Source: Flavobacteriales bacterium
GTDB lineage: Bacteria > Bacteroidota > Bacteroidia > Flavobacteriales_G > Salibacteraceae
Assembly: GCA_020435995.1 (NCBI GenBank)
Contig: JAGQYO010000013.1
Span: forward strand, 1 to 64,000
Direction of reading: 5' to 3'
DNA: 64,000 nt
Part shown: positions 38,416 through 49,402 of the stretch, one piece after another
How the letters are laid out: every line of letters starts with the position of its first letter
Position numbering within the stretch: position 1 is the first letter of the stretch
The notes under the pieces: generated by a model
The model's input: the letters and a program-made list of their open reading frames with translations, nothing else
What the model was told of the DNA's origin: nothing
Databases searched by the model: none
Position numbers and translations under genes: made by a program

Positions 38416-41400
38416 CTAGTTTTTATAAAGAATGAATGAAAAAGGGTTATCCACCAAAGAGTTGGTGTTTGATTGCCAAATATAAACTTCGAGTTTACCA
38501 CTACTAAAATCATAGGTAGCCGTCCTTCCGTTTCCGTTGGCTTCAGGCGCTACCATTGCCACACAATTACTGTTAAAAGCCGAAAAATTTGAGAATGTAA
38601 TAACGTATTTCCCTGTACTTGGATTGGTAACCGTAAAATTTCCTGTACCATTTGTAATACCTCCTCCGCCCGCAATGCGTCCCATAGCCGCAGGTAACAA
38701 ATTCACGGAACCAGTGCTCGGGGAGTTTAGCTCTTCTACACTGATGGAATCGGCATCGATCCCACCCACAACTTCCATGGCGTCAGATGGAGTTACCGTG
38801 CCGATACCCACTTTTCCAGAGGAGTCTATCATCATTCTGGGAACTCCGTTATTGGTGCTTCCTGTAAACATTCTTATTTGATAGGGATAGGTATTGTCTA
38901 AGCCTGAAAATAGAGAAATAGCGGCACCTCCATTCGTTCCATTAAAATCCGAAAACAACCGTAGAATAGCTCTGCCAGTACTTTTAAAATTGTCAATTCT
39001 GGCTGTATTATTTCCTTCCAAAAAAATGGAATTATTGACATGGAGACGTGCTTGAGGATTTGTAACTCCAATCCCTAAATTTCCACCAGAAGTCAATCTC
39101 ATTTTCTCTGGAAGTCCTGCAAAGCCTACTTGATTGCTTCCACCCGCAAATACAATATCGGGGTTTGCGCCTCCTTGTCGATGGATTTTCCAAGCGTAGT
39201 TTCCTCCTGGGTTTTGAAACGTAATACCTGTACTATCGCTGTTGTTTGTGGAAACCAGATTTATTGTATTGGGTTCTGATGATTGCACTCCTACAGTTCC
39301 CGCTAAAGTGTTATTCCCTACATCCATGCTAGCCACATCTGATATGGCTTTGCTGTTCATATTTAAATTAGTAGTGGCAGTGTGATTTCCAAGGTTATCG
39401 CCTTGCGAATCTTGCCAAGAAGCATTTCCATTCGCATCGGATGTTAATACCTTATTTAAGGCAGCCCCAGATGATAACCTAATTGCAGCTGCTTCCATTC
39501 CTCCTCCAACCTCAAATAGTGAATCAGGGCTTGAAGTGCCTATGCCTACCTTGCCACTGTTTAATACTTTCATACGTTCATCCCATGAAATAGAACCGCC
39601 GGCAGTTCCGGCTGGCGCCGTATAGAAGGAAATACCATCGCTGTGTAATTTAATTCGAGACGCTTCTTCAGCATTAATATAATTGTCGCCTTCGTTAAAT
39701 GCGTTTTCATAGATATTAAACCTTCCATTTCCATCTGCTACCCCAATTGTTCCCCAACCAAGGTTATTACCATTGGCCAGATAAAGTGCATCTCCGCCTC
39801 CATCAAGTTTTAGATCTCCTACTACATGCAATTCGGTTTGTGGACCATTGGTGCCTATACCCACTCTATTGAATCCCGCATCCACGTTAAATGTGTTGCC
39901 ATCCACGCTAAATGCAGCGGTAGAAGTAACTGACAAATTATTCCCACCAGCTGAGATAACCGTATTGCCTGTTAAGGATCCAGAACCATCATAAATACCG
40001 TTGCCATCTGCACTACTCGGGACAGACTGCCAAGAGGCAACTCCACTTCCATCAGTTTGCAAAAAATGACCATTCGTTCCTTTATTTGAAGGTAGTTGAA
40101 CTCCCCCAAGAATGGACAGAGTGTCGGCTAGAACTTTTCCAGCTACCCTCAATTTGCTTCTATTGGCCGTAAGTGTATCACCCAAAAGCAAGCCGCCATC
40201 ATCAAGGAATATCCCCCATTGATTCACGTCATTGGTACCTGCATGCATAGTAATTGCCCCACCATTAGCCTGTAATGCCAAAAAAGAAGTTGAGCCATTG
40301 TTTCTTGCTAAAATTTCATTGTCATCGAACACCACATTGGTTCCTGATGTATTGCCAATTACCAAATACCCATTTGAAGCATTCAAGGATGCATCATTTC
40401 CACCTCTAATATGCAAAGGAACTTGAGGTGATGTTGTGCCAATACCCACCTTACCAGCAGTAGTAATACGCATTACTTCGGTACTATTGGTCGTAAAAAT
40501 AATTCGGTCTGAACTTAAGGCTTGAACCTTTGCAGAGCCATCGTTGTCGGTAATTCGAGAACTGTCTTTTACAGAGTTCGGCAATTGCGCCGAGCTAATA
40601 CTTCCTTGAAAAACCGAACTGTTGGTTCCTGCCGCGGCGATGCTGCTGCTGTAGCAAATGATGTAGTTGACGTTGGCGTTGACAGGGCGGGTTTCATTTC
40701 CGCCAGTGCTCTCTATATACTGGGTAAACCAGCCCTCAGCACCAACTGTACTTTCTCCGGTGATTCCGGAAGTCGGAAAATTCAAAGGATCGTTATAACT
40801 AGCACCTGTTGAAGTTTTGCCCCAAACCCTATGAGAATGGCTCTGAATTTGATTGCCCTGGACAGATCCTACCTTATCCCCAGTATTTCCGCCGGTATTA
40901 ATTGCCGATCTACCAGCTGCATCTGGATCATTGCCAGCTCCTAAGTTCGTTCCTCTTAAAAAACGACCTCGTAAATCAGGTAAGTTGAAGTTGCTTCCAC
41001 TTCCACCCCAAGCATAGCCGATGGCCGAGAATAATTCAGAATAGGAAGCTGTTGCCAAACTGGCGCCGTTACATAATAAAAAACCCGCTGGTACTTGAGC
41101 TGTATCGCCCGCAAAGGAAATAATGGAACCCGCAGGAACGGCAAATTGAGTGGCACCAGCCGAAGCAATGTTGGACCAACCTGAACCATTGTTATAAAAA
41201 AAAGCTGAACTGTCGGTATTGTAAATAAGTAGTCCGGCGGCAGGAGAACCTATCGCATTCATTTGAGTGGTGGTCATTCGAGGCCCCAAAAATCCTCGAC
41301 TGTTACTTTGCACTTCTAAGGCTGCTGAAGAATTTGGCGTACCGCCTGTTTGGTTGATTAAAACCCATTGAGCCTTTGCCGTTGGCGCGGCGAGTAAAAA

Positions 41401-41712
41401 GATAAAAGTTATAAAGTAAAAAGCTGAAAGGGGAAAGTGGAAAGGGGAAAGTTTAAAGGGGAAAGGAAAAAGTCGAAAGTTGAAAGGAAAAAGTTTAAAG
41501 TGGAAAGGGGAATGGTTAAAGTGGAAAGGGGAAAGTTTAAAGTTTAAAGGAAAAAGTTTAAAGCTTAAAGCGGGAAGGTTAAAATGGAAAGAGGTGATTT
41601 TAAAGTCAAAAGGTTGAAGTTTAAAGGGGAATACCAGCAAATTTCTTTTGCTAATTCTCATTAAAATAAATTTTATTTTATCAATGACTGATGTTTTTTT
41701 TAATTTATCCAT
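38416..41712 (-). CDS. Fibre protein A: signal peptide interrupted by heptad tract, phage tail-collar domain
   Basis: A 1098-residue secreted fibre. The hydrophobic signal core is at 100-110 (FITFIFLLAAPTAKA, cleavage near 114). The shared N-terminal module (115-185: SSAALEVQSNSRGFLGPRMT, QMNAIGSPAAGLL) follows, then a phage tail-collar domain (about 193-255, FNLPDLRGRFLRG) with an HSH motif (H292, H294) like metal-binding tail fibres. A beta-fibre shaft with GKVGIGTxxP repeats and KVLTSDANGNASWQ linkers runs to an unassigned C-terminal beta domain (about 1000-1098). Residues about 29-99 are encoded by 30 heptanucleotide units. The ATG at 41712 lies 2 bp after the upstream stop; an alternative ATG at 41661 gives MRISKRNLL, a natural signal-peptide n-region. 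Confidence 0.85.
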   Translation of the reverse strand: MDKLKKTSVIDKIKFILMRISKRNLLVFPFKLQPFDFKITSFHFNLPALSFKLFPLNFKLSPFHFNHSPFHFKLFPFNFRLFPFPFKLSPFHFPLSAFYFITFIFLLAAPTAKAQWVLINQTGGTPNSSAALEVQSNSRGFLGPRMTTTQMNAIGSPAAGLLIYNTDSSAFFYNNGSGWSNIASAGATQFAVPAGSIISFAGDTAQVPAGFLLCNGASLATASYSELFSAIGYAWGGSGSNFNLPDLRGRFLRGTNLGAGNDPDAAGRSAINTGGNTGDKVGSVQGNQIQSHSHRVWGKTSTGASYNDPLNFPTSGITGESTVGAEGWFTQYIESTGGNETRPVNANVNYIICYSSSIAAAGTNSSVFQGSISSAQLPNSVKDSSRITDNDGSAKVQALSSDRIIFTTNSTEVMRITTAGKVGIGTTSPQVPLHIRGGNDASLNASNGYLVIGNTSGTNVVFDDNEILARNNGSTSFLALQANGGAITMHAGTNDVNQWGIFLDDGGLLLGDTLTANRSKLRVAGKVLADTLSILGGVQLPSNKGTNGHFLQTDGSGVASWQSVPSSADGNGIYDGSGSLTGNTVISAGGNNLSVTSTAAFSVDGNTFNVDAGFNRVGIGTNGPQTELHVVGDLKLDGGGDALYLANGNNLGWGTIGVADGNGRFNIYENAFNEGDNYINAEEASRIKLHSDGISFYTAPAGTAGGSISWDERMKVLNSGKVGIGTSSPDSLFEVGGGMEAAAIRLSSGAALNKVLTSDANGNASWQDSQGDNLGNHTATTNLNMNSKAISDVASMDVGNNTLAGTVGVQSSEPNTINLVSTNNSDSTGITFQNPGGNYAWKIHRQGGANPDIVFAGGSNQVGFAGLPEKMRLTSGGNLGIGVTNPQARLHVNNSIFLEGNNTARIDNFKSTGRAILRLFSDFNGTNGGAAISLFSGLDNTYPYQIRMFTGSTNNGVPRMMIDSSGKVGIGTVTPSDAMEVVGGIDADSISVEELNSPSTGSVNLLPAAMGRIAGGGGITNGTGNFTVTNPSTGKYVITFSNFSAFNSNCVAMVAPEANGNGRTATYDFSSGKLEVYIWQSNTNSLVDNPFSFILYKN
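41417..41626. repeat. Heptanucleotide tract, 30 registers of NNNAAAG, inside fibre gene A
   Basis: Reading the plus strand in steps of seven, 25 of 30 units end exactly in AAAG (variable part GGG, TGG, TTT, TCG, TTG, GAA and similar); the other five are near-matches. The tract is 210 bp, 70 codons on the coding strand. There it translates as a heptapeptide pattern (FPFNFKL, SPFHFxx). One unit gained or lost shifts the reading frame. Counts were made by eye. Confidence 0.9.
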
Positions 41713-41714
41713 GC

Positions 41715-42077
41715 CTATAAAGATTTAATTAATCCTGATATGATTTTCGATACTTCTTCACATTGGTTTTTAAGGCTTTCAAACTCTGATTTTTGAACAT
41801 AACCTAAATCCAAAGCCACATAAAGCATCGACCTTACTTCGCCACAACTTGCCTTTGAAATAAACAAATAATTTCTCCATTCGGGAGTGGTTCTCTTTTC
41901 AAATCCTTCGGCAAGATTGTTCATCACAGAAACGGAGGCTCTACAAATCTGATCTTTAAATCCAAAATCACGCGAATCTTTAAACAATGCATAAACCTCT
42001 TTAACAAGAAGCCGTGCTTTTTGCCAAGCAATTAAGTCCTCAAATCTTATGACCGTATGAGATGCAGATTCATTCAC
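41715..42077 (-). CDS. Four-helix-bundle protein (23S rRNA IVP / Avd-like family)
   Basis: A 120-residue all-helical protein with the hallmarks of the four-helix-bundle family: FEDLIAWQKARLLVKEVYALFK, FGFKDQICRASVSVMNNLAEGFEK, EWRNYLFISKASCGEVRSML and a final helix. This family includes proteins encoded by 23S rRNA intervening sequences and the Avd accessory protein of diversity-generating retroelements. No rRNA or reverse transcriptase is present here. Its stop is 2 bp from the start of fibre gene A, so they may be cotranslated. The function in this setting is unknown. Confidence 0.9.
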   Translation of the reverse strand: MNESASHTVIRFEDLIAWQKARLLVKEVYALFKDSRDFGFKDQICRASVSVMNNLAEGFEKRTTPEWRNYLFISKASCGEVRSMLYVALDLGYVQKSEFESLKNQCEEVSKIISGLIKSL

Positions 42078-42131
42078 CGTTTACACGCTATTATTTATTG
42101 TTCTATTTTCTTTTCTTCTCTCAATTTTGGA

Positions 42132-42164
42132 CTTTTCAACTTTCGTCTTTCAACTCCAAACTCC
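42132..42164. repeat. Short inverted copy of the heptanucleotide repeat
   Basis: The plus strand reads CTTTTCAA, CTTTCGT, CTTTCAA, CTCCAAA: the same CTTTNNN units as in fibre genes A and B but in the opposite orientation. It lies directly after the stop of fibre gene B and before the four-helix-bundle gene. Confidence 0.6.
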
Positions 42165-45100
42165 CTACTTATTACTCTGCCCTTCATTCAACATTTTTTG
42201 TATTAATTCCAATTTGGCGTTTATTTCATTGATTTTTGATGTTTGATCTTCGATGTTGGATTGTTGATTTTCGATTTTGGATTTTAGACCACTATTTTTC
42301 AATTTTAATTCTTCAATTAATACTTGTTGTTCTTTAATAGCTTGCAACAAGACAGCCGAGAATTTAGCGTAATCTGCAGCCAAATAGCCTTCGGAATTGG
42401 GATAAACCAACTCAGGATATACTTTTTGAAGGTCTTGTGCAATTAAACCAATTGTTCTTTCACTTGAAAAAGCCAAGTTTGGAAAATTAATTGTGTCCCA
42501 ATTGTGATAAACACCTTCAATTTGATCCAATGTATTGAGTACACCTTCTATTGGCAGAATGTTGTTTTTGTACCTTCTATCCGATACCAAAGCAACTCCA
42601 CCTGCCCTTACCAACCCGCTGGCATTAATATCGCCTATGACGTGTAATGGATACGTGGGATTAATTGTTCCAATACCTACATTTCCAGTATTAGATATTC
42701 TCATCGCCTCTGTACCATTTGTCCTAAACGTTGTTGGACCATTCTCCCAATTCCAAAATACAGCCTCAGAACCAGACATACCAACAGTGAGTCCATCGTT
42801 GGCATTCCCTCCCGAAGAAGAATTTGTATATTGCATATAACTACCTGACCCGCCAGTGTTTAAGTGAAAATATCTCTGTGGATTCGTGGTGCCGAACCCT
42901 ACAAAGCCGTTGCTGTCAATGACCATACGGACGGTCGTTTTTTTCTTATCGTAAAAGCCAACACTTCCTTTTGATAGCTCATTATTAGCGCTGTCATCAA
43001 CAAATATCAGCCAATCTGCCTGGTCATTTTTTATATCAAATCCTGCTTCTTTTGTAGTATTCTCAATCGTCACATAACCGTGATCAGCGCCTCCTTGGTA
43101 TACTAATAGGCGGTCTTGGGTTCGTGACGGAATTGCCCCGATTCCCACCTTGCCATCATTTACCACAGTCATTCTACGAGATTCGGTATAAGAGGCATCA
43201 GGTCCGACACTATCAGCGGTGTAAAACCCAATTGAGCCCGAGATGTAATCAAAATTTATAAATGAGCCTAATCCTCCATTGATACTTTTCCAGCCTCCAT
43301 CATAGTACATATTACCCGTAATGTGGGCATTGTTTAAGGCCGAAGTAATGCCTGTCATATTTCCTACTTGAAAATGTGCCTTTGGGTTGGTAGTACCTAT
43401 TCCTACATTTCCAGCGTTGGTAATTCTCATCCTCTCCGTAGTGGTAGATGCACCACCGGCGGTAGTATGGAACTGAATTCTTCCAGGGGCATCGGCTGTT
43501 GCAGGAGTTCCATCCACTTCAAATTGGATTTTCGCTACTGTATTGTATGTACTTCCATCGTATGCCGCAGCACTTATTCGTCCAACATTATCTCCCGTGA
43601 CTACTGCAGTGGACGAAGCTTCAGTGCCCCTTGCTTTGCTTAAGATTAACGACGAAGCGTCAGACAATGTAGAACCAAATGAATTGATGCGAGCAGTAGT
43701 GGTTGAAGAGCCCGAAATAGTTAGCTTCGCCGATAGTGAACTGGTACCAATTCCCATATTGCCGGCGGTGTCAATGGTCAGTCTGGTAACGCCTTTGGTA
43801 TCATCTCGAATCAAGAATTTTTTTGGAATGCCCAACTGACCTATCGAATAGGTTTGATGAACACTTTTCATTCGAATAAATACGTCATTATCACCTCCCG
43901 ATTCCATTTTAAATTCGGTGTTAGAAGTAGGGCGATATAGATGTAATCGAACGTCTTGATTTGTTGAAGCATAAGTTCCTAACCCCACCGTACCCGTATT
44001 TCTGATTTGCATGGTTAAGTTGCCATTATTAAAGAAAGTCGTTGAATCTCCATCTGCTGTTGGTTCTAGATCAATTCTCGTATCGCTATCTTCATCCTTT
44101 ACTTTACTACCCGCAGCTGGCGTTTCCCACGTTGCTTTTCCTTTGGCATCGGAGGTGAGGATTTTACCATTTGTTGCCCCAAAAGGAAGGAAGAAACTAT
44201 CTCTTACCGTAAGAGAACTATTTAACAAAAGTGAATCCGTAGCAAAATCACCAAAAATTAATGGCAAAGAAGAATTTGAATTTTCGATATAAAGTTTTTG
44301 GCTAGCAGTTGAGTCGTTCTGACCCGCTTTAAAGCCAAGAAATACATTTGAATGACCTGTATTGTCCTTTCCAGCTTCATAACCAATGGCAACATTTCGA
44401 ATACCCGATGCATTGTTTAGCAATGAAGAGGAACCGATACTTATGTTGTCAGACCCACCAGTTTTTGCTCCTTGAGCATGTCTGCCTATTGCAATGTTAT
44501 CATCTCCACCAGTAGTATTTTCTAAAGCTTGGACACCAAGGGCTACATTACCACTTCCGCCAGAATGAGAGCTAATCGCCTTATTTCCAATAGCAATATT
44601 ACCAAATCCTCCATTATTGTTTGTCAGTGCATTTCCACCAATGGCTAAATGAGCTTGGGAGCTTTCGTTACTAGCCAAAGCATTTCTACCAATCCCTACA
44701 GATGGGTTTGATGTTGTTGGAAATTTATAATTGACCGCTGCATTCTCGCCAATAAATAGATGACCGCTGGTATTTAAAACCTCAATTCTTCCGCTGTCCA
44801 ATCTGAAGAATTCGGTCCCTCCCAAATCAAATCGTATGATGTCTTCGTCTGCAGATTCTTCCACTTGAATTTTGGTATCGTTATCGGAGTCTTGTATGGA
44901 AGAAACTGCAGCCACAGAAGGCGTTTGCCAAGAGGCCACTCCATTGGCATCAGAAGTAAGCACCTTGGTTGCTCCCGCACCATCAGTCATAGTAAGGTAG
45001 GTCGTTTTGATACCCCCATTTACGGTAAGAGTAGAATCAATTGAACCGGATCCTACGCCCAGTTTTGATGAAGGAATTACGACATTACCGCTAAAATTAG

Positions 45101-46193
45101 ATATACCTCCACTTGATATGGTAAATCTATCGTTTCCACCAGTTTTAAGGCGCAGGTCTCCAGAATTGCCATTATTTCCAGTTATTCCAATACTGGAATT
45201 TGTTAAATAATACCCCGTTCCTACCCCTGTGGTACGGTAATCTCCGCCAGCAATGATGGCGAAATTTCCGGCTCCTGCAGTCGCTGGAGTAAGGGTTACT
45301 TGGCCATTATTAGCGATGGTTATCCCTTCATTTCCGCCATCGTTAGACAAATAATTTCCGTTGAGTTGGATGTTTGAAGTGGCGGTGTGGTTACCGAGAT
45401 TATCTGTGGGATAACTACTCAACTCATTAATCGCTTTCCACGCGCTGCCATTGAAATAAAAGTGTTTTGAACTGTCAGTATTGTATACAAAAAGTCCACT
45501 AGCAGGTGAGCTTATTGCATTCATTTGAGTAGTGGTGAGCCTCGGCGGTAAAAAACCACGTGAGGTATCTGATACTTCGAGGGCTGCGGAATTGTGTGGG
45601 TTGCCGCCAGCTCGGTCTATTTTCATAAATTGTGCTTGCGCCGTCGGTGCGGCGAGTAAAAAGATAAAAGTTAAAAGGGGAAAGGGGAAAGTCGAAAGGG
45701 GAAAGTGGAAAGGGGAAAGTTGAAAGTTGAAAGTTGAAAGTTTAAAGTGGAAAGGGGAAAGTTGAAAGTTGAAAGTTGAAAGTTTAAAGTTAAAGGGAGA
45801 GTGGTTAAAGTCGAGAGTGGAAAGTTGGGAGGTCAAGTTTCGGCTTCGATTAAGATAATCATGCAAAGTGGGAATAATCGTTCTTCGAAGCCAATTTGTT
45901 TGGTTGGTATTCGATACCCTTCTCTCTTCAGTCGAATCGCTCAGACTGCTACCATTGTCAGTTCCCAGCCTAACCGGCAGGCAGGGAGTAGCTTTAAGGA
46001 GCGACAGCGGATTAAAGGTGTATCGAGAACTTGCTATGTTATTTAGAACTTCTCGATACATTTTGGCGAAGGCAAAAAAACTCCCAGACCGACCACCTGG
46101 AAGAGAAGTGGCAGAAAAAAAAGATAAAAACAATCTAACCTTCTTAAAGACTGATCTTATTTTCAATGACATATTCCATGACATAACATTCAT
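42165..46193 (-). CDS. Fibre protein B: YadA-like head repeats and peptidase S74 intramolecular chaperone
   Basis: A secreted fibre of up to 1342 residues. The signal core LLTFIFLLAAPTAQA (cleavage near 187) is nearly identical to that of protein A. Then comes the shared N-terminal module (188-257, PRLTTTQMNAISSPASGLF), collagen-like/YadA-like head repeats (nt about 44220-44760: NIAIGNKAI, NVALGVQAL, NVAIGYEAG), a GIGT-repeat shaft and a C-terminal S74 chaperone. In the chaperone, SDRRYKNNI places Ser1204 at the expected self-cleavage site, with GLIAQDLQKVYPELV and a terminal coiled coil. The first about 165 residues are translated from dispersed repeats and the heptad tract, and are doubtful; no ATG lies between residue 45 and the signal core, only a TTG at 45836. 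Confidence 0.82.
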   Translation of the reverse strand: MNVMSWNMSLKIRSVFKKVRLFLSFFSATSLPGGRSGSFFAFAKMYREVLNNIASSRYTFNPLSLLKATPCLPVRLGTDNGSSLSDSTEERRVSNTNQTNWLRRTIIPTLHDYLNRSRNLTSQLSTLDFNHSPFNFKLSTFNFQLSPFHFKLSTFNFQLSPFHFPLSTFPFPLLTFIFLLAAPTAQAQFMKIDRAGGNPHNSAALEVSDTSRGFLPPRLTTTQMNAISSPASGLFVYNTDSSKHFYFNGSAWKAINELSSYPTDNLGNHTATSNIQLNGNYLSNDGGNEGITIANNGQVTLTPATAGAGNFAIIAGGDYRTTGVGTGYYLTNSSIGITGNNGNSGDLRLKTGGNDRFTISSGGISNFSGNVVIPSSKLGVGSGSIDSTLTVNGGIKTTYLTMTDGAGATKVLTSDANGVASWQTPSVAAVSSIQDSDNDTKIQVEESADEDIIRFDLGGTEFFRLDSGRIEVLNTSGHLFIGENAAVNYKFPTTSNPSVGIGRNALASNESSQAHLAIGGNALTNNNGGFGNIAIGNKAISSHSGGSGNVALGVQALENTTGGDDNIAIGRHAQGAKTGGSDNISIGSSSLLNNASGIRNVAIGYEAGKDNTGHSNVFLGFKAGQNDSTASQKLYIENSNSSLPLIFGDFATDSLLLNSSLTVRDSFFLPFGATNGKILTSDAKGKATWETPAAGSKVKDEDSDTRIDLEPTADGDSTTFFNNGNLTMQIRNTGTVGLGTYASTNQDVRLHLYRPTSNTEFKMESGGDNDVFIRMKSVHQTYSIGQLGIPKKFLIRDDTKGVTRLTIDTAGNMGIGTSSLSAKLTISGSSTTTARINSFGSTLSDASSLILSKARGTEASSTAVVTGDNVGRISAAAYDGSTYNTVAKIQFEVDGTPATADAPGRIQFHTTAGGASTTTERMRITNAGNVGIGTTNPKAHFQVGNMTGITSALNNAHITGNMYYDGGWKSINGGLGSFINFDYISGSIGFYTADSVGPDASYTESRRMTVVNDGKVGIGAIPSRTQDRLLVYQGGADHGYVTIENTTKEAGFDIKNDQADWLIFVDDSANNELSKGSVGFYDKKKTTVRMVIDSNGFVGFGTTNPQRYFHLNTGGSGSYMQYTNSSSGGNANDGLTVGMSGSEAVFWNWENGPTTFRTNGTEAMRISNTGNVGIGTINPTYPLHVIGDINASGLVRAGGVALVSDRRYKNNILPIEGVLNTLDQIEGVYHNWDTINFPNLAFSSERTIGLIAQDLQKVYPELVYPNSEGYLAADYAKFSAVLLQAIKEQQVLIEELKLKNSGLKSKIENQQSNIEDQTSKINEINAKLELIQKMLNEGQSNK
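45664..45831. repeat. Heptanucleotide tract, 24 registers of NNNAAAG, in fibre gene B
   Basis: In steps of seven, 20 of 24 units end exactly in AAAG; 168 bp, 56 codons. A higher-order block (GGGAAAG, three TTGAAAG, TTTAAAG, TGGAAAG) is repeated with a 42-bp period, showing recent internal duplication. It immediately precedes the signal-peptide core, as in gene A. Confidence 0.88.
45834..46193. other. Repeat-derived stretch read through at the 5' end of fibre gene B
   Basis: Though open in the gene-B frame, this stretch looks non-coding. It holds CCTAACCGGCAGGCAGGGAG, a GC-rich element of the type scattered in Bacteroidota intergenic DNA, a TCAGTCGAATCGCTCAGACT segment, and an 11-bp inverted repeat at 46019-46060. 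Translation gives low-complexity sequence without domain character. The true gene-B start is therefore uncertain. Confidence 0.55.
46019..46060. repeat. 11-bp inverted repeat / stem-loop (TGTATCGAGAA ... TTCTCGATACA)
   Basis: Perfect 11-bp arms at 46019-46029 and 46050-46060 around a 20-base loop. It lies in the repeat-rich stretch between fibre genes C and B, and may be a dispersed palindromic repeat or an attenuating hairpin. Confidence 0.65.
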
Positions 46194-46206: not shown

Positions 46207-47643
46207 TTATTGGGCTTTTGTTATTGTATAGGTGATTCGAACTGAAGCTAACTGAATTGTCGTTAATGCTTCCTTAGTTTCAAATATTAGAGAGTAGACT
46301 TTTGATGAATTGTCAATGGTTGCGTTTGCAATGGTATTATCAACTAGCGTTTGGTTTCCGGAATTTCCAACTGAGGAGGCATTCGACATTTCTGCCATAA
46401 ATCCTGAAGCATGTAATTGATTGACAAGTCGAACTTGAGCATTATAAGTAGAATTGGCATCATAAACCAATGCCGAAACTTCAGTTACTGTAGCGCCATG
46501 TGGCAAATGAACTGGAGCAATAAGATAGGCATCGTTTGAAATCAATCCGCCTTGGGTTCCCACACGCATTACGCCGGTGGTTCCCGATGTTAGGTATTGC
46601 CTGTATGCCGATACGCTCTGGTTGGTAGTGGATATTTCGAAGGCTGAAGAATGAAAAGACATATAACTCGTTTTGGCCGATTCGTATGTATAATCGCCAT
46701 CAATTTGAATATCACCTTCAACATCCAATTCTTCGGAAGGTGACGATGTGCCGATTCCTACATTTCCATTAGCGCCATCAACTACCATCCTTGTTATTGT
46801 GGAGGTTCCTGTTCTAGTTCTAAATTCAATATCTCCAGGATCATAAGGTCCGAAAGTGTTTCCACCACCAGTTATCAACACGCCGCCACCTTGTCCAAAC
46901 CCAGGAGCACCATAACCATCTCCCGCAGATAAATACAAGGATCCACCTGGATAACCAAATCCACAGCATCCTGCACTGCCCGCAGCCAGCCCCAAGCTCG
47001 ATCCGGGTGCATTCGTGCTCCGGTTGTCTACGGTTATATTTCCTCCCGAAGATTCTAAAAACTTAATATTTCCAGCGAGATGAATTTTTTCTTCAGGACT
47101 TGTAATGCCAAAGCCTACATTTCCAGTATTATCTATTCGTATTCCCTCATTATCACCATCGTTTGACAAATAATTGTCGTTCAATTTTATGTTTTGGGTC
47201 GCGGTATGATCTCCCAAATTATCTTCTGATAAATCGAGCCACGAACTGCCATTGTAGAAGTAAAAACCTCCTTCCGTGCTATTAAAAACTAATAAACCTG
47301 TAGCTGGCGAACTAACCGCATTCATTTGTGAAGTGGTTAATCTTGGTATTAACATTCCCTTTGTAGTAGATTCTATTTCGATTGCTGCCGAAGAGTCTGG
47401 ACTGCCACCATTTTGATTGACTAACACCCATTGTGCTTGTGATGATTGAACCGCAAATAGAATAAATAAAGCAATGAATTGGAGAGCTAAAAAATTGAAT
47501 TGACTTGCACCATTTTTGAATAAGGAATACTTCGAAGATTTATTTTTCTCAATACTGACAAAAGAATATGGTTTCGAAACTGAAGGATTTAAGCTTCTCA
47601 GACATGATTGAATCTGCTGCATAAATTGGTTTTTAGTTTTCAT
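46207..47643 (-). CDS. Fibre protein C with unassigned C-terminal beta domain
   Basis: About 478 residues. A hydrophobic core LQFIALFILFAVQSSQA (about residues 53-70) is preceded by an unusually long polar N-terminus, so secretion starts oddly late. The shared module follows: WVLVNQNGGSPDSSAAIEIESTTKGMLIPRLTTSQMNAVSSPATGLL, given here only as a pattern in two parts around PRLTTSQMNA. There is a LSEDNLGDHTATQNI block, also in fibre D, then GIGTSSPSEEL and a C-terminal beta domain with PVHLPHGATVTEVSALVYD. The frame opens at a TTG (47649); the ATG at 47643 is preferred and overlaps the end of fibre gene D by 11 bp. Confidence 0.82.
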   Translation of the reverse strand: MKTKNQFMQQIQSCLRSLNPSVSKPYSFVSIEKNKSSKYSLFKNGASQFNFLALQFIALFILFAVQSSQAQWVLVNQNGGSPDSSAAIEIESTTKGMLIPRLTTSQMNAVSSPATGLLVFNSTEGGFYFYNGSSWLDLSEDNLGDHTATQNIKLNDNYLSNDGDNEGIRIDNTGNVGFGITSPEEKIHLAGNIKFLESSGGNITVDNRSTNAPGSSLGLAAGSAGCCGFGYPGGSLYLSAGDGYGAPGFGQGGGVLITGGGNTFGPYDPGDIEFRTRTGTSTITRMVVDGANGNVGIGTSSPSEELDVEGDIQIDGDYTYESAKTSYMSFHSSAFEISTTNQSVSAYRQYLTSGTTGVMRVGTQGGLISNDAYLIAPVHLPHGATVTEVSALVYDANSTYNAQVRLVNQLHASGFMAEMSNASSVGNSGNQTLVDNTIANATIDNSSKVYSLIFETKEALTTIQLASVRITYTITKAQ

Positions 47644-49402
47644 ACTCAATGTTTATTCCCAGTATTCTTAATTTTCCCGTACTCGTATCCAAGGCATCTC
47701 CCCCACTACGGCGAATTATAAATGTTACGTAGTTGCTTCCAGTACCTACAGAAAAACTCTTGTTCCAAATTTTCACCGCATCCACTGTTGACGGTGCTGG
47801 AATCGTATTCAATACACCACCAGGGGCACCAGAAACCACATCGCCTTCTGCAAAATTCTCAAAGGCCATAAACATTCTAAAATTCCCTGAGTTATCATCG
47901 CTAGTATAATAAATCACCGCAGTGAAATTATTGGATGTGCGATCTGCGGGTGCCAAAAAAGTCAAGGACAAGTCATCCGTATTGACATCGTCAAATTGAA
48001 CATATCTACGACCCCAGCTATATGTTCCAAAAGTGGTTCCTGAATAAAGTACGTCGTTGGAATACAAGTGAACAGGAAAGGCAATTGTGTTTGTTTTTGA
48101 CGGTACATCTTGCCACGTGGCATCACCATCAGCATCCGAAACCAATACTTTGTTCGCGGCTGCACCGGTAGTTACTTTTAAATCTTGCGTGATTGTTTTT
48201 CCAGAAATGTCTAACTCAGATGTAGGATTGGTATTACTTATACCTACATGTCCCGTTTGAGCTTCGACGACTATGCTTGGAGATTCATCTGTATTCGACC
48301 AGCGTCTACCAATTCCAAAATTGTTGCTTCCAAAACTGGAATCATCAAACCCCACATTCATTCCCACTGAGCTGGCATCTTGCCTAAAACGCAGCATGGG
48401 GTTGTCCGTTTCGGTAACGTTATCTGCATCGGCTTCGAGCCAAATCTCGGCATCTGCATTATCTTGAATATGCAAAAACGCTGAAGGGGAATTGGTTCCA
48501 ATTCCAATATAACCCGTGCTCGAAATCATCATCCTATCAGAATTAGAAGTTCTGAAATACAAATTGCCAACTTCGTAACCTTGGAAGTAGGTATTAAGTC
48601 CAGTTGTGCCTAACCTAAATCCATCGGTGGATGATGAGCCTGTAGAGGAATTGGTTATTTGCAACCATGATGATGATGCCGAACTGTTGATATGAACTTG
48701 ATTATGGGGATCGCTAGTCCCAATTCCCAAATTTCCGTTTTGGTCGATACGCATGCGCTCGTCCAAAGCATTGATATCCGAATTTGCCGCTCCCCCTCTA
48801 AACACCAAATCGGCCTGATTGCCTCCGACATTCTCCCTTCGAATATTCCAAGTGTAGGCTGCTCCTGAATTTTGAAAAGCAATCCCGTGGCTAAGTACAT
48901 TATTTGAGGATTGTAAGGTGAGTGCATTTGAAGTATCTCCAAAAATGGTAAGTTGTCCTGAAGGTGAAGAAGTTCCTATTCCTAAATACCCATTAGGCAT
49001 GAGCAGATTCCCTGAAAAAGTTCCTACTCCTGAATTACTAATTGAAAGTCCCTCATTTCCACCGTCGTTAGAAAGGTAATTGCCATCAAGTTGAATATTT
49101 TCGGTAGCGGTATGATCTCCCAAATTATCTTCAGACAAATTGACCCAAGCGCTTCCATTATAAAAATAAAAAGAGCCATTGGTACTGTTAAAGATTAAAA
49201 GTCCTGTGGCGGGTGATGAAATGGCATTCATTTGGGCGTTCGTCATTCGAGGAACAAGAACTCCCTTGCTCGTAGACTTTACTTCAAGCTGAGCAGACGA
49301 ATCTGGAGCTCCACCATTATCATCAATAAGAACATTTTGCCCACTAAGCGAAATTGAAGCTAATACAAGTACAAATAATACAACATGGCTTTTTTTTCTC
49401 AT
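47633..49402 (-). CDS. Fibre protein D with unassigned C-terminal beta domain
   Basis: A 589-residue secreted fibre with a conventional signal peptide (MRKKSHVVLFVLVLASISLSG, cleavage near Q22). The shared N-terminal module (about 23-92: VPRMTNAQMNAISSPATGLL, FYFYNGSAWVNLSEDN) is followed by a GIGTSSPSGQL/GIGTNSPSAFL shaft and the linker KVLVSDADGDATWQ. A C-terminal domain of about 150 residues begins IAFPVHLYSNDVLYSG and ends in IEYEN; its fold is not recognised. It is the second gene of the fibre operon, 18 bp after gene E and overlapping gene C. Confidence 0.85.
   Translation of the reverse strand: MRKKSHVVLFVLVLASISLSGQNVLIDDNGGAPDSSAQLEVKSTSKGVLVPRMTNAQMNAISSPATGLLIFNSTNGSFYFYNGSAWVNLSEDNLGDHTATENIQLDGNYLSNDGGNEGLSISNSGVGTFSGNLLMPNGYLGIGTSSPSGQLTIFGDTSNALTLQSSNNVLSHGIAFQNSGAAYTWNIRRENVGGNQADLVFRGGAANSDINALDERMRIDQNGNLGIGTSDPHNQVHINSSASSSWLQITNSSTGSSSTDGFRLGTTGLNTYFQGYEVGNLYFRTSNSDRMMISSTGYIGIGTNSPSAFLHIQDNADAEIWLEADADNVTETDNPMLRFRQDASSVGMNVGFDDSSFGSNNFGIGRRWSNTDESPSIVVEAQTGHVGISNTNPTSELDISGKTITQDLKVTTGAAANKVLVSDADGDATWQDVPSKTNTIAFPVHLYSNDVLYSGTTFGTYSWGRRYVQFDDVNTDDLSLTFLAPADRTSNNFTAVIYYTSDDNSGNFRMFMAFENFAEGDVVSGAPGGVLNTIPAPSTVDAVKIWNKSFSVGTGSNYVTFIIRRSGGDALDTSTGKLRILGINIEYEN

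Follow-up and report, generated by a model that had tools for sequence, protein, structure and literature searches.

Two adjacent paralogous fibre genes in a Flavobacteriales bacterium each carry a tract of degenerate 7-bp units in the region encoding the signal peptide, and both tracts look like translated, frame-kept heptamer inserts, i.e., a tolerated insert drawn from a common noncoding repeat. Within the window (the whole 64,000-nucleotide stretch of DNA that was analysed), the first of these genes is laid out as follows.

38416 to 41712, minus strand: fibre gene A, 1,098 residues, with a signal peptide containing the tract, an N-terminal fibre domain and a phage tail collar domain
41413 to 41629, plus strand: tract A, 31 AAAGNNN heptamers, of which 26 have an exact AAAG; the minus-strand translation is rich in F, L and P (~70 residues)
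41371 to 41415, minus strand: h- and c-region of the fibre A signal peptide, FITFIFLLAAPTAKA, with a hydropathy peak of 2.5
41662 to 41712, minus strand: probable true start and n-region of fibre A, MDKLKKTSVIDKIKFIL, homologous to the start of gene B
41630 to 41661, minus strand: alternative start, MRISKRNLLVF (ATG at 41661), the choice of the preliminary description

The collar domain of fibre A matches Pfam PF07484 (Collar, E=3e-19). The preliminary description had reported a plus-strand tract at 41417-41626 in which AAAG closes 25 of 30 registers, and both the sequence and a repeat finder bear this out; extension of the same register to 41413-41629 raises the tally to 26/31. When tract A was shuffled 20,000 times, the best register reached 7 AAAG, and elsewhere in the window, on both strands and with the two tracts excluded, the maximum was 4/30 per 210-bp stretch. 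Tract A lies within the open frame 38416..41712, is in frame, and is placed directly ahead of FITFIFLLAAPTAKA and the QWVLINQ that follows it; the earlier claims that the tract splits the signal peptide of fibre A and that it is presently in frame thus both hold. It had also been placed between MRISKRNLL, read from ATG 41661, and the h-region; here the position stands, yet the start of fibre A is probably ATG 41712, since this N-terminus is common to genes A and B. Over 43 bp, the A start MDKLKKTSVIDKIKFIL and the B start MSLKIRSVFKKVRLFL align at the DNA level without a gap (shuffle P=0.0002), rendering ATG 41712 better supported than the still possible ATG 41661.

A second tract, absent from the preliminary description, is found in the neighbouring gene B. 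Two further paralogues follow.

42165 to 46193, minus strand: fibre gene B, adjacent paralogue of A, ending in a Peptidase_S74 chaperone domain
45660 to 45834, plus strand: tract B, 25 AAAGNNN heptamers, of which 21 have an exact AAAG; it abuts LTFIFLLAAPTAQA
45840 to 46115, plus strand: in-frame insert of gene B, from the n-region to tract B, parts of which match other places at 75-84%
46207 to 47649, minus strand: fibre paralogue C, with a long n-region without heptamers
47633 to 49402, minus strand: fibre paralogue D, with an ordinary signal peptide

Tract B occupies the position in gene B equivalent to that of tract A, before LTFIFLLAAPTAQA, and the h/c-regions of the two genes are identical at 35/42 bp. 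As the n-region, insertion point and h-region are all common to A and B, the heptamer tract most likely predates the A/B duplication. No heptamer tract is present in paralogues C and D, and long n-regions without tracts occur both in a paralogue and among relatives. Direct alignment of tracts A and B yields indels that are not confined to 21-bp multiples, and was not used as evidence. The ~280-bp insert of gene B matches weakly once within the genome and twice among relatives, for which reason its assignment to a clear known element was rejected. This insert also holds an inverted repeat, GTATCGAGAA...TTCTCGATAC, with parts matching another contig and two relatives.

Between tract A and the mature protein of fibre A there is no in-frame ATG, GTG or TTG; tract A would therefore have to be translated if fibre A is made at all. 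Coding-strand stops across the three frames number 9, 0 (in frame) and 2 for tract A, and 4, 0 (in frame) and 1 for tract B. Upon shuffling of the units, the probability of an open frame is 0.008 for tract A and 0.106 for tract B, with the open frame also being the reason for which the feature was picked out. Tract A further displays a superperiod of three units (21 bp; D=0.091), a value reached in 0/2000 shuffles, whereas D in 22 other tracts is at most 0.012; tract B has no such 21-bp superperiod (shuffle P=0.97). Given that the superperiod is seen in none of the 22 comparison tracts, tract A appears to have evolved as, and by its sequence behaves as, coding sequence, whether through selection on the frame or through segment growth; the superperiod could derive from duplications of 21- or 63-bp segments rather than from selection.

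Tracts A and B are two of five places in this genome with AAAG heptamer tracts. Each of the other three closely follows the stop codon of a gene for an apparent sorted surface protein, and one of them is located at a contig end (contig C207 ends inside it). Two intergenic tracts of this genome, at 66975-67027 of contig C22 and 5906-5972 of contig C189 (L041 and L042), have flanking sequence in common and lie downstream of the stop codons of surface-protein genes that resemble each other, which suggests duplication of a gene end together with its tract. In a sample of 149 Bacteroidia relatives, in which the same genus is not represented, such tracts were found in 41 genomes. Only 21/110 of the relatives' tracts lie inside ORFs, many of these in doubtful frames, so the relatives' tracts are mostly intergenic. 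Among the usable intergenic tracts, 57/74 are closer to the gene lying 5' of the AAAG strand (P=3e-6), at a median distance of 20 bp on this side versus 133 bp on the other, and mostly after stop codons. Tracts A and B depart from the intergenic habit, as both are coding, yet they obey the rule of proximity to the 5' gene, since the h-region marks the beginning of their AAAG strand. Tracts were absent from the signal peptides of the other fibre homologues examined, and a translated search of public genomes returned tracts, none of them inside a fibre signal peptide. Apparent long ORFs running through tracts (e.g., L149, L150 and L165) were set aside, as these seem to be either spurious frames or cases in which a tract adjoins a start codon. 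In the cyanobacterial Moorena locus (L161), a near-perfect TTTCAAC array is of the same type as the AAAG tracts. The third fibre homologue, L118 (6210-6404), apparently begins with two tandem signal peptides, MKAIFLHSGFGFLLVVFMVIPTISYTQW...SALALIIILLVGNSVQA.

On balance, we consider it probable that a degenerate, usually intergenic heptamer array came to lie within the signal-peptide coding region of the A/B ancestor, where it is translated and kept in frame without being a tuned switch. Tract A would thus be an array of a kind widespread between Bacteroidia genes, which entered at the junction of the n-region and h-region in the common ancestor of the two genes. It would be read as an F/L/P-rich spacer of ~70 residues that should leave with the cleaved signal peptide, with selection having preserved a tract devoid of stops whose net length maintains the frame; gain or loss of one unit would amount to a null mutation. 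Against this account, it is unusual for a signal peptide to contain a spacer of ~70 residues, and tract B is without the superperiod.

The preliminary description had instead proposed that slippage switches the gene on and off, each 7-bp unit gained or lost shifting the frame. The frame-shift component of this proposal stands, with a one-unit change amounting to an OFF mutation: the unit length is no multiple of 3, the tracts lie inside a reading frame, and the other two frames stop at most 35 codons after the tract in A and at most 52 in B (range, 0-52), so the logic of a switch holds. A contingency locus toggling fibre A (and B) in the manner of the CTCTT repeats of Neisseria opa would also fit the placement within a surface protein's signal peptide and the presence of a tract in two paralogues, and opa itself is a precedent and the nearest case of such a switch at work (PMC3960869, PMC5354566). 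The slippage component is not supported, as (i) the units are degenerate, with no long run of identical units (period 7 persists uninterrupted for no more than 18 bp in A or 28 bp in B), (ii) tract A has a 21-bp superperiod, and (iii) tracts of this type in other genomes are mainly found between genes; the lack of a tract in every other fibre homologue examined also speaks against it. The fibre tracts being poor slippage substrates, an on/off switch, though possible, is in our judgement unlikely. An assembly artefact, i.e., a wrong number of units owing to short reads unable to span the tract, is a concern for a draft genome of 207 contigs, one of which ends inside another tract; however, with both tracts in place the reading frames run open for >1000 codons, an outcome expected of a random error in unit number 1 time in 3, and we hold this source of the feature to be very unlikely. 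Highly improbable is that the tract is noncoding, with the true gene start located after it and the open frame accidental. Heptamer tracts are normally noncoding, and in L165 a tract immediately precedes a start codon; yet for fibre A this reading is opposed by the lack of any later start codon, the improbability of the open frame, and the homologous n-region upstream of the tract in both A and B.

A further possibility arises from the gene located between fibre B and fibre A, which ends 2 bp before ATG 41712, and from the sequence beyond it.

41715 to 42077, minus strand: 23S rRNA-intervening-sequence protein (IVP; S23/four-helix-bundle) gene (PF05635, E=4e-33; TIGR02436)
42110 to 42155, AAAG on the minus strand: candidate left arm of degenerate heptamers, just past the fibre B stop and inverted relative to tract A

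Among relatives, IVP genes (loci L248-L317) have heptamer-periodic sequence on both flanks (P ~1e-10 each). Inverted similarity of the flanks exceeds the 95% level of 415 control genes at 37/51 IVP loci and the 99% level at 28/51; a control in direct orientation, against cross-locus pairs, gave a weak 11/51. IVP genes also recur at the same gene junctions across genomes, in two groups. One junction (L263, L268, L269, L277 and L282) resembles sufB-sufC, judging by the neighbouring sequences; the other (L249, L255, L260, L261, L264 and L270) resembles the fatty-acid oxidation pair fadB-fadA. In the sufB-sufC-like group, in which the surrounding genes are the same, arm complementarity has a median of 17.5 within a locus and 7.5 between loci, with a weaker contrast in the fadB-fadA-like group (11.5 versus 8.0). 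The arm sequence at one site thus differs among genomes, yet the two arms remain complementary. The literature searched yielded no account of IVP genes associated, outside rRNA, with heptamers or inverted repeats.

Tract A might on this basis represent the 3' arm of an element akin to an rRNA intervening sequence (IVS) but free-standing, the right arm of which overlaps the region coding for the fibre A signal peptide; in the transcript, pairing of the arms could then place the IVP gene within a loop. Such a reading, which concerns origin and is compatible with a translated, frame-kept insert, is possible, though we lean against it. The inverted arms of the relatives' IVP genes favour it, as does the local sequence: 42110-42155 scores 15.5 against tract A in inverted orientation and 8 in direct orientation, and a predicted fold pairs the two, such that tract A could be the 3' arm of the IVP element. 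Conversely, the similarity of the arms is modest (shuffle P=0.014) and an equal score is found elsewhere in the window, the predicted fold is no more stable than shuffles (z=0.41), tract A starts 85 bp past the IVP stop where 0-46 bp is typical, and tract B has no IVP gene. A wider and more tentative proposal, which we consider somewhat doubtful, is that free-standing IVP genes of Bacteroidota are intergenic IVS-like elements with inverted, complementary arms of fast turnover, that tract A is a 3' arm captured as coding sequence of a fibre signal peptide, and that stem processing could therefore cleave the fibre A transcript.

For the fibre genes, our analysis points to a normally noncoding heptamer repeat that was apparently domesticated as coding sequence in two signal peptides, with the frame signature of the tract setting such a domesticated repeat apart from a slippage switch. 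The association of IVP genes with heptamers is the more novel lead of the two. The presence of IVP genes between co-varying inverted heptamer arms, for which the literature searched has no counterpart, is a regularity that can be tested and that bears on the role of the very common S23/IVP genes as well as on that of the heptamer tracts.

Among known systems, the tracts resemble the Xanthomonas (GGGAATC) and Nostoc (GGGGA(C/T)T) heptamers, heterogeneous repeats which the available excerpt of their description (PMC4692102) presents as degenerate, mostly intergenic and near the 5' neighbouring gene, a proximity stated there for Xanthomonas. The AAAG tracts share with these the degenerate tandem 7-bp units, the dispersal through the genome and the proximity to the 5' gene, as well as the location described in that excerpt, on the sense strand after stops or the antisense strand before starts. 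The unit sequence and the phylum are different, the Xanthomonas repeats are rarely intragenic, and signal peptides are not mentioned in the excerpt (PMC4692102). The IVP locus resembles the 23S rRNA IVS of Coxiella burnetii, in which an S23p gene lies between terminal inverted repeats and tandem heptamers that vary between strains precede its start (PMC4990558). There, the element is located in a 23S rRNA gene and excised by RNase III (PMC4990558), whereas the IVP genes considered here, including that of the window, sit between protein genes. As in Neisseria opa, whose leader-peptide region contains CTCTT repeats (PMC3960869, PMC5354566), genes for surface proteins here have short repeats, with a unit length not divisible by 3, in the part that encodes the leader peptide; the opa units, however, are described as identical, with demonstrated high-frequency frameshift switching (PMC3960869), whereas the 7-bp units of the fibre tracts are degenerate. 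Haemophilus hmw1A and hmw2A likewise carry heptanucleotide repeats (ATCTTTC) at the 5' end of surface-adhesin genes, but those repeats lie between promoters and tune transcription (PMC8262952), whereas the fibre tracts lie inside the coding region.
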